The notes under the pieces were generated by a model. That model did not search any database and was not told where the DNA came from. It saw nothing but the letters and a program-made list of their open reading frames with translations. The translations under genes were made by a program, and so were the position numbers. From assembly GCF_040024445.1 (NCBI RefSeq), contig NZ_CP157276.1:4464001-4528000 (forward strand): 64,000 nucleotides of DNA, given 5' to 3'. The DNA comes from Prescottella soli. Lineage in GTDB: Bacteria; Actinomycetota; Actinomycetes; Mycobacteriales; Mycobacteriaceae. Each line of letters opens with the position of its first letter. Position 1 is the first letter of the stretch. Shown piece after piece: positions 19,027 to 24,140 of the stretch.

Positions 19027-19042
19027 ATACCCCCTGGGGTAT
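19027..19042 (+). promoter_or_regulatory. CsoR/CstR-type operator 1
   Basis: ATACCCC-ct-GGGGTAT is a perfect 7-2-7 inverted repeat, 29 bp before the GTG of the CoA-disulfide reductase gene. C-tract/G-tract palindromes of this kind are the known operators of CsoR/CstR-family repressors, and a CstR-like gene lies at 23436. Confidence 0.75.
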
Positions 19043-19071
19043 AGTCGTCGGCAACATCGAGGAGGTAGATC

Positions 19072-20727
19072 GTGAAGGTTGTCATCGTCGGAGGTGTCGC
19101 CGGCGGGATGTCCGCCGCCACCCGCATGCGTCGTCTGGACGAGTCGGCGGAGATCGTCGTGTTCGAGCGCGGCGCGCACGTGTCGTTCGCGAACTGCGGT
19201 CTGCCGTACTACGCCGGCGGCGTCATCGAGGACCGCGACGAGCTGCTCCTGCAGACCCCGGAGAGCCTCGGCGCCCGCTTCCGGCTCGACGTCCGCGTCC
19301 GCAGCGAGGTCGCCGCGATCGACCCCGACGCCCGCACCGTCACCGTCCACGACCTCGCGTCGGGCGACGCCTACGTCGAGAGCTACGACGAGCTGGTGCT
19401 GAGCACCGGCGCGAGCCCCATCGTGCCGCCGCTGCCCGGCGTCGAGCGCGCCCTGATCCTGCGCGATGTCGAGGACGTCGACCGGCTGGTCGGGCAGATC
19501 GAGTCGGCGCAGATGTCCTCGACTGCCGGCGCCGTCATTGTCGGCGCCGGCTTCATCGGCGTCGAGTTGGCCGAGAACCTGCGCCACCGGGGCCTCGACG
19601 TCACCGTCGTCGAGCTCGCCGACCAGTTGCTCGCCCCGCTCGACCCCGAGATGGCGGCCCCCGTCGCCGACCGGATGCGCGAGAACGGCGTGCGCCTCGA
19701 ACTCGGCACCCAGCTGACCTCCATCGGTGCGGACACCGCCGAACTCGCCGACGGGCGCACCGTCCCGGCCGACGTCGTCGTCATGGCGATCGGCGTCCGG
19801 CCCGAGACTGCGCTCGCGAAGATGGTCGGTGCCGACCTGGGCGAGCGGGGCGGCGTCGTGGTCGACGACCAGATGCGCACCTCCGTTCCGCACATCTTCG
19901 CGGTCGGCGACGCCGTCGAGAAGCGTGACGCCGTCGGCGGTGGCGTCGCGATGATCCCGCTCGCCAACCCGGCGAACCGGCAGGGCCGCCTGGTGGCCGA
20001 CGTCATCGCGGGCCGTCCGGTGCGGGCGAAGGCGTCGTCGGGCACAGCGGTGGTCGGGGTCTTCGGTCTGATCGTCACCGCCACCGGCTGGAACGAGAAG
20101 CGACTGCGCGCCACGGGCCGTCGGTACCAGGCCATTCACACGCATCCGCAGTCGCACGCCGGGTACTACCCGGGTGCGCAGCAGATGGCGATCAAGCTGC
20201 TCGTCGACCCCGAGACCGACGCGATCCTGGGCGCCCAGGCCGTGGGCGGCGAGGGCGTGGACAAGCGCATCGACATCATCGCGACCGCGATGGCCGGGGG
20301 GCTGACCGCGTCGGACCTGGCGGATCTCGAGCTGGCGTACGCGCCGCAGTTCGGCTCGGCCAAGGATCCGGTGAACATGCTCGGCTACATCGCCGACAAC
20401 CTGCGCACCGGCGCCACCCGCACCGTCCAGTGGCACGAACTCGATACCCTGATCGCGGGCGGCGCGTCCCTCGTCGACGTCCGCACCGCCGACGAGTTCG
20501 CGGCCGGCGCCATCCCCGGCGCCGTCAACGTCCCGCTCGACGAGCTCAGGGACCGGGTCGGCGAACTGCCGGCCGGGGACCTGATCGTGCACTGCCAGGT
20601 GGGTCAGCGCGGCCACACCGCGGTGCGCCTGCTCGCGCAGCTGGGTCGGCCCGCGGTCAACCTCGACGGCGGATACAAGACGTGGGACGCGGGGCGGCAC
20701 GCGAACGTGCCGGCCGGCGTGGCATGA
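19072..20727 (+). CDS. CoA-disulfide reductase with C-terminal rhodanese domain
   Basis: The 551-residue fusion enzyme has an N-terminal FAD site VIVGGVAGGMSAATR, the single redox Cys42 in SFANCGLPYY (the CoADR signature, not a CxxxxC disulfide), an NAD(P)H fold around VIVGAGFIGVELAENL, and the second FAD motif IFAVGDAV. The C-terminal rhodanese domain (about 455-545) begins at SLVDVRTADEFAAGAIPG and has active Cys508 in HCQVGQRG. Such fusions reduce CoA-persulfide or CoA disulfide and handle sulfane sulfur. The GTG is preceded by GAGGAGG. It is first in an operon with a second rhodanese and under a CstR-type operator. Confidence 0.9.
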   Translation: MKVVIVGGVAGGMSAATRMRRLDESAEIVVFERGAHVSFANCGLPYYAGGVIEDRDELLLQTPESLGARFRLDVRVRSEVAAIDPDARTVTVHDLASGDAYVESYDELVLSTGASPIVPPLPGVERALILRDVEDVDRLVGQIESAQMSSTAGAVIVGAGFIGVELAENLRHRGLDVTVVELADQLLAPLDPEMAAPVADRMRENGVRLELGTQLTSIGADTAELADGRTVPADVVVMAIGVRPETALAKMVGADLGERGGVVVDDQMRTSVPHIFAVGDAVEKRDAVGGGVAMIPLANPANRQGRLVADVIAGRPVRAKASSGTAVVGVFGLIVTATGWNEKRLRATGRRYQAIHTHPQSHAGYYPGAQQMAIKLLVDPETDAILGAQAVGGEGVDKRIDIIATAMAGGLTASDLADLELAYAPQFGSAKDPVNMLGYIADNLRTGATRTVQWHELDTLIAGGASLVDVRTADEFAAGAIPGAVNVPLDELRDRVGELPAGDLIVHCQVGQRGHTAVRLLAQLGRPAVNLDGGYKTWDAGRHANVPAGVA

Positions 20728-20768
20728 CACAGTCGCCTGAATCATCGAACACATCCGGAAGGAACCCC

Positions 20769-21077
20769 ATGCGCGAAATTGACGTGACCGAACTCGAATC
20801 GGTGTTGGCGACCGGCGCCCCCCTCATCGACGTCCGGGAGCCGGAAGAGTTCGCCGAGGCGCGGGTCCCCGGTGCCGTCTCGATTCCGCTCAGCGAGTTC
20901 GTCGCGCGCGTCGACGAGGTTCCCACCGATGTCACGGTCTACATGATCTGCGCGGTCGGCGGACGCAGCGGCCAGGCCGCCGAGTACCTCGCGGCCCGCG
21001 GCGTCGATGCCGTGAACGTCGCCGGCGGCACCATGGGCTGGATGCAGTCCGGCCGCGCCGTCGAGTCCGGCAACTAA
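20769..21077 (+). CDS. single-domain rhodanese-like sulfurtransferase
   Basis: The 102-residue rhodanese domain has LIDVREPEEFAEARVPGAVS (residues 19-38) and the active loop CAVGGRS with nucleophile Cys61. It transfers sulfane sulfur between thiols. GGAAGGA 6 bp upstream supports the ATG at 20769; an in-frame ATG at 20724 overlaps the stop of the preceding gene (ATGA) and would give a 15-residue extension and direct coupling. It is co-transcribed with the CoADR-rhodanese gene and followed by a strong terminator. It may pass persulfide to or from the fused rhodanese. Confidence 0.9.
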   Translation: MREIDVTELESVLATGAPLIDVREPEEFAEARVPGAVSIPLSEFVARVDEVPTDVTVYMICAVGGRSGQAAEYLAARGVDAVNVAGGTMGWMQSGRAVESGN

Positions 21078-21086
21078 TCTCACCCG

Positions 21087-21125
21087 AACCCGGTCGAGGT
21101 CTCGTGTACTCGACCGGGTTTCTTC
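21087..21125 (+). terminator. Rho-independent-type terminator after the rhodanese gene
   Basis: A perfect 12-bp stem AACCCGGTCGAG / CTCGACCGGGTT with a 10-nt loop is followed by TTCTT. It begins 9 bp after the stop codon, so the MMPL gene downstream must have its own promoter, which agrees with the separate operator at 21137. Confidence 0.88.
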
Positions 21126-21136
21126 GGGCCACTCAT

Positions 21137-21152
21137 ATACCCCCACCCGTAT
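21137..21152 (+). promoter_or_regulatory. CsoR/CstR-type operator 2 (degenerate)
   Basis: ATACCCC-ca-CCCGTAT sits 25 bp before the MMPL start. The left half equals operator 1; the right half keeps GTAT but has CCC in place of GGG. Position and left half suggest regulation by the same repressor, perhaps with lower affinity. Confidence 0.55.
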
Positions 21153-23343: not shown

Positions 23344-23350
23344 CCTCGAG

Positions 23351-23384
23351 TGGGCTGTGACCGATAGACCTCGGTCACAGCCCA
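23351..23384 (+). terminator. hairpin terminator after the MMPL gene
   Basis: A perfect 14-bp stem TGGGCTGTGACCGA with its complement has a 6-nt loop, starting 7 bp after the stop and lacking a T-run. It separates the transporter from the repressor gene, which has its own operator. Confidence 0.8.
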
Positions 23385-23394
23385 CCGGGGATGG

Positions 23395-23410
23395 ATACCC
23401 CTGTGGGTAA
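23395..23410 (+). promoter_or_regulatory. CsoR/CstR-type operator 3 (autoregulatory)
   Basis: ATACCCCTGTGGGTAA contains TACCC-ctgt-GGGTA and lies 26 bp before the repressor start. It matches operator 1 in word content and position, which suggests autoregulation of the repressor-DUF302 pair. Confidence 0.7.
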
Positions 23411-23435
23411 TCTGGAAGGGAAACGAGGAGGTCTC

Positions 23436-23702
23436 ATGACCGGAGACGAAGAGAGCATCGCCCAGGTGCTCAACCGCCTGCGCCGCGCGCAGGGACAGCT
23501 GGCCGGAGTCATTTCGATGATCGAGAACGGCCGCGAGTGCAAGGACGTCGTCACGCAGTTGGCGGCGGTGTCGCGCGCGCTTGACAGGGCCGGATTCAAG
23601 ATCGTCGCGACGGGGCTGCGCGAATGCCTGGCCGGCGACGGCAAGGCGTCCGAGCCGCTCACCGAGGCCGAGCTCGAGAAGCTGTTCCTGGCACTGGCGT
23701 GA
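23436..23702 (+). CDS. cstR: CsoR/RcnR-family repressor, CstR-like persulfide sensor
   Basis: The 88-residue all-helical repressor has [26 protein letters not shown] and LREC. It retains the two Cys at positions 35 and 64 (29 apart, as in both CsoR and CstR), but the Cu(I)-binding His four residues before the second Cys is Gly60. Loss of that His is the feature that separates CstR persulfide sensors from copper-sensing CsoR. GAGGAGG precedes the ATG; an upstream in-frame codon at 23391 overlaps the operator. The neighbours (rhodaneses, CoADR) agree with a sulfane-sulfur role. The symbol is by function, not proven orthology. Confidence 0.82.
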
Positions 23703-23753
23703 TCCCGGCCCGACCACCGGGGAACCGAAACCGACAACCGTGAGGAGTCAGTG

Positions 23754-24140
23754 ATGGATCTGGGAATCTCGACCCGCTTGAACACCGAGTTCGACGACGC
23801 GATCGCCAAGACGCGGGCGGCGTTGCAGGAACAGGGTTTCGGTGTCCTCACCGAGATCGACATGCAGGCGACGCTGAAGGCGAAGATCGGCGTCGAGATG
23901 GAGCGCTACGTCATTCTCGGCGCCTGCAACCCGCAGCTCGCGCACCGCGCGGTCGGCGTCGACCGTCAGATCGGCTTGCTGCTGCCGTGCAACGTCGTCG
24001 TCCGCGCCGACGGTGAGGACGTGATCGTCGAGGCCATGAACCCGGCGCTCATGGTCGAGGTGACCGGGGAGCCCGAGCTCGAATCCGTGGCCGCCGAGGC
24101 GACGACCCGGCTGCAGGCCGCGATCGACGCCCTGGTCTGA
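23754..24140 (+). CDS. DUF302 protein
   Basis: The 128-residue DUF302-type protein starts LGISTRLNTEFDDAIAKTRAALQEQGF and has the conserved middle YVILGACNPQLAHRAV and LLLPCNVVVR. It carries two Cys residues in these conserved blocks. No signal peptide is present. The family is small and functionally unassigned, but in many bacteria it accompanies rhodanese or thiol-stress genes. It is 51 bp downstream of the repressor and probably co-transcribed with it. A GTG at 23751 is an equally possible start; GAGGAG serves both. Confidence 0.85.
   Translation: MDLGISTRLNTEFDDAIAKTRAALQEQGFGVLTEIDMQATLKAKIGVEMERYVILGACNPQLAHRAVGVDRQIGLLLPCNVVVRADGEDVIVEAMNPALMVEVTGEPELESVAAEATTRLQAAIDALV

Follow-up and report, generated by a model that had tools for sequence, protein, structure and literature searches.

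Known CstR systems and the Prescottella soli locus

CstR of S. aureus is reportedly the type member of a kind of sensor with two cysteines 29 residues apart (C31 and C60), and its cst targets are said to be TauE, CstA, CstB and SQR, with neither an MMPL nor a DUF302 protein among them. In the cst-like operon of E. faecalis (CstR, RhdA, RhdB and CoAPR), CstR controls a CoA-persulfide reductase and rhodaneses (PMC9405070), while the S. coelicolor repressor ScCsoR binds ATACC-N6-GGTAT, is released by polysulfide and regulates its own gene (PMC7533328). Here we describe a related locus of Prescottella soli, which occupies positions 19027-24140 of a 64-kb window (the whole stretch of DNA that was analysed) within a genome of 5.48 Mb, and in which genes for a CoA-disulfide/CoA-persulfide reductase with a rhodanese domain (CoADR-rhodanese), a rhodanese, an MMPL transporter, a CsoR-family repressor and a DUF302 protein stand behind three similar operators. 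Our comparisons of this locus with its relatives indicate that it very probably belongs to a regulon that is governed by a CstR-type repressor and answers stress from persulfide/polysulfide (sulfane sulfur).

Sequence features of the repressor

The repressor gene (23436-23702, + strand) encodes a member of the CsoR/RcnR family (PF02583, 82.2 bits against a cut-off of 22.8). Its cysteines C35 and C64 lie 29 residues apart and are invariant in all 17 sequences of our alignment, and alignments to solved relatives place a glycine (G60) at the histidine-ligand position of copper sensors, leaving no Cys-His-Cys set. These features point to a repressor of the CstR type, the persulfide-sensing branch of the CsoR/RcnR family, that would be released by persulfide or polysulfide.

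The only other PF02583 gene in the genome has C-H-C ligands, adjoins a gene that looks CopA-like from its sequence (named without a family search) and has TACC-N7-GGTA in its promoter. An N7 operator was likewise found at 24 of 30 copper-type CsoR loci, one of which (L108) also has an N6 match, and the remaining 6 gave no match. Judging from these patterns, the difference in operator spacing, N6 for CstR and N7 for copper-type CsoR, is a plausible means of stopping the two paralogues from acting at each other's sites within the same cell.

Operators of the locus and their conservation

The reference operator was ATACCCC-N2-GGGGTAT (ATACCCCNNGGGGTAT), with ATACC-N6-GGTAT as its core form. Operator 1 (19027-19042, ATACCCCCTGGGGTAT) is a perfect palindrome with 0 mismatches to the reference, located 29 bp 5' of the start of the CoADR-rhodanese gene, and a TATAGT overlaps its end. 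Operator 2 (21137-21152, ATACCCCCACCCGTAT) lies 25 bp 5' of the MMPL start and operator 3 (23395-23410, ATACCCCTGTGGGTAA) 25 bp 5' of the repressor start; they have 3 and 2 mismatches to the reference, respectively, and 1 mismatch each to the core form. No strand is assigned to any of the three. The sites named in the original prediction, at 19027, 21137 and 23395, are real, as is the stated distance of 25-29 bp to the start codons.

Searching the window at up to 3 mismatches gave 4 matches, the fourth at 57953, against a mean of 0.95 in shuffled sequence; since 3 of 100 shuffles reach 4 matches, the window alone strongly supports operator 1 only. The scan of the whole genome that the original prediction had called for allowed up to 2 mismatches and returned 6 places: three perfect sites, all before sulfur/thiol or Cys-rich genes, operator 3, and two places in coding-looking frames (L004 and L006). 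The reversed-pattern control gave 1 place at this threshold and 0 perfect sites. A fourth occurrence of ATACC-N6-GGTAT in the genome, at 1836181, is taken for chance because it lies inside a long frame with a G+C content at third codon positions of 0.89 and has a non-G/C core.

Operators 2 and 3 were accepted because they are conserved before the same genes in congeners. When the upstream regions of orthologous genes were searched with the loose pattern ATACC-N5..7-[GC]GTA, operator 1 was exact in all 14 genomes of the genus. Operator 2 was present before the MMPL orthologue in each of the 12 congeners read (10 exact, one with a 1-base deletion and one with a substitution), a count that leaves out G007 and G005, where the stretches read at the main cluster showed no MMPL start. 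Before cstR, 13 of the 14 genomes keep ATACCCCTGNGGGTAA with one variable position, and the 14th (G005) has ATACCCCCACCGGTAC. Identities within operators 1, 2 and 3 were 1.00, 0.99 and 0.96, values that are high by construction, as the comparison windows were chosen by the operator itself. Identities in the 24-bp flanks were 0.40/0.77, 0.63/0.38 and 0.52/0.68, respectively; this comparison was ungapped, making the flank values somewhat low, and G008 drops out of it at operator 2. In 5 congeners operator 2 is kept even though an inverted repeat lies between it and the MMPL start.

An inverted repeat of about 58 bp, whose arms read GTTTTGCGCACTT, has a single copy in the window, at 54149-54206, and is also found between operator 2 and the MMPL gene at five loci (L032, L091, L093, L097 and L098) and before cstR at another (L099). 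It is an interspersed element, resembling a repetitive extragenic palindrome (REP) or a miniature inverted-repeat transposable element (MITE). Separately, G007 carries a second, diverged cluster (L101, G007:C1:1803000-1816000) with cstR at 78%, MMPL at 79% and the Cys-rich gene at 57% identity and three ATACC-N6-GGTAT sites, including sites before both the cstR and the MMPL gene.

Perfect sites outside the cluster

The two remaining perfect sites of the genome lie away from the locus, at genome positions 667924, before the gene for a 52-aa Cys-rich protein, and 3033630, before a gene pair encoding a rhodanese and, in the membrane, a YgaP-like protein. With these additions the predicted regulon is one of five units at three chromosomal places, and the description of the locus as self-contained does not survive.

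Perfect sites were found in 21 of 41 genomes, our own included, while the reversed control gave 0 in all 41. Every one of the 14 genomes of the genus carries between one and three. All 37 perfect sites in the genus precede sulfur/thiol or Cys-rich genes (14 CoADR-rhodanese, 9 rhodanese/YgaP-like, 13 Cys-rich and 1 SQR-like; in G003 the YgaP-like gene alone was found). The same is true of 12 of the 13 distinct sites outside the genus, a second pair in G027 being treated as a repeated contig end; these 12 precede genes for persulfide-dioxygenase-like (PDO-like), CoADR, rhodanese, YgaP-like, peroxiredoxin, thioredoxin-rhodanese or Cys-rich proteins, several of the names resting only on similarity to other proteins of this analysis. 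Three PDO-like proteins that were tested have metallo-beta-lactamase and rhodanese domains, and the one searched against solved structures matched 3tp9, 3r2u and BpPRF (5ve3).

Recurrence of the gene set

Neighbouring genes were counted at 57 CstR loci, those of the best 80 of 578 candidates that have 4 kb or more of sequence on either side, a sample that, being drawn from the best-scoring loci, leans to close relatives. Within 6 kb of cstR, DUF302 was present at 44 of these loci, Cys-rich genes at 23, MMPL at 22 and PDO-like genes at 21, with CoADR matches at 8 (some short) and CopA-like matches at 2. ATACC-N6-GGTAT occurs within the same distance at 52 of the 57, a raw count without a shuffled control. 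Loci of this kind are found in Nocardia, Gordonia, Rhodococcus and Mycolicibacterium, and across Mycobacteriales the genes for CstR, MMPL, DUF302 and the Cys-rich protein form clusters of changing composition.

Plasmids carry the set as well. On pRHL3 of R. jostii RHA1 the row reads metallo-beta-lactamase (MBL), trxA, a carboxymuconolactone-decarboxylase-family gene, a small hypothetical (Cys-rich) gene, rhodanese, MMPL, CstR-type regulator, DUF2892, DUF302, TauE and MBL; a plasmid of R. qingshengii has a similar cluster. Among plasmid records, 76 encode a relative of the Cys-rich protein and 130 a relative of CstR. One locus from a Rhodococcus metagenome-assembled genome (L191) has, close together, cstR, Cys-rich and rhodanese genes along with two MMPL, three DUF302 and three PDO-like matches (one at 72% and two at 34-35%).

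Genes and transcription units of the locus

All five gene calls of the original prediction were confirmed by Pfam and NCBIfam searches. The first gene (19072-20727, + strand) encodes a reductase with a C-terminal rhodanese domain (CoAPR type), as seen from its Pfam domains and its solved relatives 3icr and 8a56; the latter, named 'Coenzyme A-persulfide reductase', is matched at E 1.5e-156. Its only cysteines, C42 and C508, are both at catalytic positions. The match to TIGR03385, the equivalog family of CoA-disulfide reductase, reaches 450.9 bits against a cut-off of 578.8, so that the protein is related to that family and is not an equivalog. The single-domain rhodanese (20769-21077, + strand; PF00581) probably shares an operon with the reductase, and folding showed no strong hairpin in the gap that separates them.

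Downstream of the rhodanese gene lies a terminator-like hairpin with a T-rich tail (21084-21130, + strand; -28.8 kcal/mol, z -5.2), and between the MMPL and repressor genes there is another strong hairpin (23346-23392, + strand; -34.1 kcal/mol, z -7.3) that has no T run. The terminators proposed to separate the units are thus real as hairpins; a consensus terminator scan lists neither of them.

The DUF302 gene (23754-24140, + strand; PF03625, 88.4 bits against a cut-off of 23) and the repressor gene are probably one transcription unit. The solved relative of the DUF302 protein, 1j3m, is a conserved hypothetical protein. Members of the family are on record from sox clusters (PMC5037610), and the occurrence of DUF302 there and in Arthrobacter sulfur modules fits a place for it in a sulfur regulon. 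Elsewhere in the genome, at 3778524-3778709 (L267), a further DUF302 domain with a lower score (38.2 bits) lies within an open frame of 292 aa.

On its 5' side the locus adjoins a gene for an error-prone DNA polymerase, as identified by domain and family searches. On its 3' side, a gene for a TDT/SLAC1-family transporter (24157-25221, - strand) is convergent to the DUF302 gene, with a LysR gene (25313-26206, + strand) beyond it. The TDT/SLAC1 family includes sulfite exporters. Such a transporter is found near cstR only in 3 congeneric loci among the 57, and it may therefore be a genus-specific sulfite exporter.

The MMPL transporter

The gene behind operator 2 (21178-23343, + strand) encodes an MMPL/RND-family transporter of 721 aa (PF03176, E 4e-72). 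Paired Asp-Tyr residues in both repeats are the motif expected of a proton-driven MMPL/RND pump, and here such pairs (GIDY and AMDY) are present in both, with D265, Y266, D612 and Y613 invariant in 27 aligned sequences. The favoured candidate for the substrate, though put forward with low confidence, is a thiol or lipid product loaded with sulfane sulfur. A mere replacement for a sulfite exporter seems unlikely, as TauE and MMPL co-occur on pRHL3.

We also considered whether the lack of cysteines in this protein could be an adaptation to persulfide, and rejected the idea. The transporter has 0 Cys, as do its 26 orthologues apart from one Cys in the upstream extension of the called start of L188. 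The same-genome paralogues judged to be in frame are similarly poor, one having 0 Cys and two having 1 (L271, L274 and L276), so that the lack is not special and was not used as evidence. Three paralogues (L270, L273 and L275) and a match below the cut-off (L282) were left out of this control since their longest frame looked wrong.

A family of small Cys-rich proteins

The protein encoded behind the perfect site at 667924 has 52 aa and six cysteines and begins MCYPVTCKTCSKTTWGGCGQHVDSVMRTVPAAQRCKC. It matches no NCBIfam family and no Pfam family near the cut-off (its own best match is DUF702 at E 0.68), its profile finds no solved relative (best E 0.14), and of 29 members searched against Pfam 1 had a marginal match (DUF7575, E 0.0098). 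Alignment of the 29 members shows M1, C2, C7, C10, G17, C18, G19, H21, V25 and C35 to be invariant. In 6 of the 29, the last C-x-C is replaced by C-x-G-H, a Cys-to-His exchange that suggests a metal ligand. The protein may bind zinc and/or sulfane sulfur; a metallothionein reported to bind sulfane sulfur offers a distant parallel (PMC12618007).

By hand tally, 26 of the 41 genomes have a Cys-rich gene, and all 26 also have a CstR-type gene (that of G015 being divergent, at 42% identity). Among 296 genomes of the class, with CstR counted at E below 1e-25 and 61 genomes with weaker matches placed at CsoR level, 88 have both genes, 57 CstR only, 31 the Cys-rich gene only and 120 neither (Fisher p 1.3e-12, which ignores relatedness). 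For the 65 listed genomes with both, CstR and Cys-rich genes lie within 8 kb of each other in at least 39 and within 1.5 kb in at least 21. TACC-N6-GGTA was found within 200 bp upstream of 28 of 58 distinct Cys-rich genes. In one family (f40), 20 of 26 small genomes (1.2-2.2 Mb) have the Cys-rich gene but no gene of CstR type, a hint that the Cys-rich protein has an independent role.

Proposed mechanism and alternative explanations

By analogy with ScCsoR (PMC7533328) and the E. faecalis CstR/CoAPR system (PMC9405070), the reduced repressor would block its promoters and sulfane sulfur would release it. In this model, reduced CstR would sit on ATACC-N6-GGTAT operators just upstream of the five units and prevent their transcription, until sulfane sulfur modified C35, together with C64, and the repressor left the DNA. 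Derepression would then supply the CoA-persulfide reductase with its rhodanese domain, further rhodaneses (one of them paired with the YgaP-like membrane protein) and the MMPL exporter, as well as the DUF302 protein, the 52-aa Cys-rich protein and more repressor, the last of which would reset the system. We can also propose, more speculatively and with the odds against it, that the conserved core of actinobacterial CstR systems has two further members. One would be an unnamed family of about 40-60 aa (MC-x4-C-x2-C...GCG-x-H...C-x-[C/GH]) that binds zinc and sulfane sulfur and buffers persulfides, the other an MMPL pump, driven by protons and dedicated to expelling a persulfidated thiol or lipid. 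If true, the Cys-rich buffer and the MMPL pump would form a sequester-and-export arm beside the known enzymes that oxidise or reduce persulfides.

Several observations weigh against this reading. No CstR model is among the NCBIfam matches of the repressor, the best being RicR (NF052430) at 40.9 bits against a cut-off of 175. The residue at C+25, G in 111 distinct sequences nearest CstR and H in 26 nearest CsoR, is an imperfect divider of the two types, given exceptions on both sides (nearest CstR, 10 with H and 7 with A, S, N or I; nearest CsoR, 3 with G). In the paper on ScCsoR, the N6 site is compared with the sites of copper sensors (PMC7533328), and we therefore do not claim the N6/N7 separation as general. 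Operator 2 is weak, its 3 mismatches placing it beyond the reach of the genome scan, and a scan of 18900-25350 found no sigma-70-like promoter. Of the perfect sites outside the genus, one (L072) stands before a protein without a Pfam family. For the Cys-rich family, 30 of the 58 distinct genes lack TACC-N6-GGTA in the 200 bp preceding them, some of them lying behind other cluster genes, and 31 of the 296 genomes, 20 of them in one family, have the Cys-rich gene without CstR.

A copper regulon, in which the repressor would be a copper sensor of the CsoR/RicR type, the MMPL protein would export a copper complex and the Cys-rich protein would be a copper metallothionein, draws on the CsoR-family fold of the repressor and its RicR match, and on the likeness of a small Cys-rich regulon member to mycobacterial MymT; G/C-rich operators are moreover common to copper sensors (PMC10318464). 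However, the repressor has G60 in place of the histidine ligand, the other CsoR of the genome already combines C-H-C with a CopA-like neighbour and an N7 operator, CopA-like matches near CstR are confined to 2 of 57 loci (33 and 42% identity), and the sites accompany rhodanese, PDO-like, SQR-like and CoADR genes, all of which makes copper sensing very improbable. The claim that one CstR-type repressor serves the three units of the locus and responds to persulfide instead of copper is supported by this reasoning from the second CsoR and the targets of the perfect sites.

The repressor might instead sense some other thiol-reactive signal (an electrophile, hypochlorite, nitroxyl or general disulfide stress), with persulfide incidental to its function. 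Genes for a peroxiredoxin and a thioredoxin-rhodanese do stand behind the site in two relatives, and the term CstR appears in the available text of S. aureus papers on nitroxyl, HOSCN and AGXX stress, but most often the targets are PDO-like enzymes or enzymes that transfer sulfur or reduce persulfides, and we consider such a signal quite unlikely. It is also conceivable that function is confined to operators 1 and 3 together with the unlinked sites, leaving the MMPL gene linked to the regulon and outside CstR control, as the 3 mismatches and asymmetric right half of operator 2, the weakest of the three, would suggest. Its retention before the MMPL orthologue in all 12 congeners read, exactly in 10, the presence of ATACC-N6-GGTAT before both genes of the second cstR-MMPL cluster of G007, and the proximity of MMPL to cstR at 22 of 57 loci argue the other way, and render an unregulated MMPL gene unlikely.

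Discussion of MMPL pumps usually centres on lipid export, and one under sulfur-stress control, if confirmed, would be new to that field. Under CstR control in response to sulfane sulfur, three orphan protein types (the MMPL subfamily, DUF302 and the small Cys-rich protein) would gain a testable role in the reactive-sulfur defence of Mycobacteriales.

Comparison with known systems

CsoR-family control of sulfur genes has been described in several bacteria, each sharing part of what we find here. TTHA1953 of Thermus is, like the repressor of our locus, a CsoR-family repressor of sulfur genes with targets away from its own gene, but its motif is TACNNTACNNNNGTANNGTA and it controls Sox genes (PMC10318464). 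YrkD of B. licheniformis is a CstR-like repressor released by sulfane sulfur that occurs with rhodanese and sulfur-carrier genes; its 11-gene cluster differs in containing SQR, PDO and NreBC, and DUF302 is absent from the main text of that report (PMC9918477). In Rhodococcus, proteomics of biodesulfurisation recorded two rhodanese-type proteins at lower levels in dibenzothiophene culture, with MMPL and DUF302 not appearing in the main text, and is uninformative here (PMC8557817).

The SUL modules of Arthrobacter plasmids list a CsoR-family regulator with a small hypothetical protein, rhodaneses, DUF302, a sulfur dioxygenase and TauE, although they are known from annotation only, carry an MFS transporter in place of MMPL and, in the available text, come without an operator analysis (PMC6305408). 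The novelty that the original prediction saw in DUF302 is reduced by this precedent (PMC6305408), and CstR over a CoA-persulfide reductase and rhodaneses is known from E. faecalis (PMC9405070). The part that concerns the transporter stands, in that open-access full text, among the matches listed, gave no case of an MMPL pump controlled by CstR; CstR, persulfide and DUF302 were likewise not found together in the open-access literature, both being absences of little weight.

ScCsoR is closer, as an actinobacterial CstR-like repressor with C37 and C66 29 residues apart, an ATACC-N6-GGTAT site and a rhodanese target; the four genes of its circuit are those for the repressor, a PDO, a rhodanese and a sulfite transporter, none of them for a CoAPR, MMPL or DUF302 protein (PMC7533328). 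Next to the locus in the window, neither a PDO gene nor a TauE gene was seen. The E. faecalis cst-like system matches ours in placing a CoAPR with a rhodanese domain and rhodaneses under CstR, down to catalytic cysteines numbered identically, C42 and C508 (PMC9405070). There the genes form an operon, whereas the predicted Prescottella regulon spreads over five units at three chromosomal places and takes in MMPL, DUF302, YgaP-like and Cys-rich proteins, which do not appear in the available text on E. faecalis (PMC9405070). Its main addition to the systems already described would be the MMPL pump, along with the Cys-rich family that has no name as yet.

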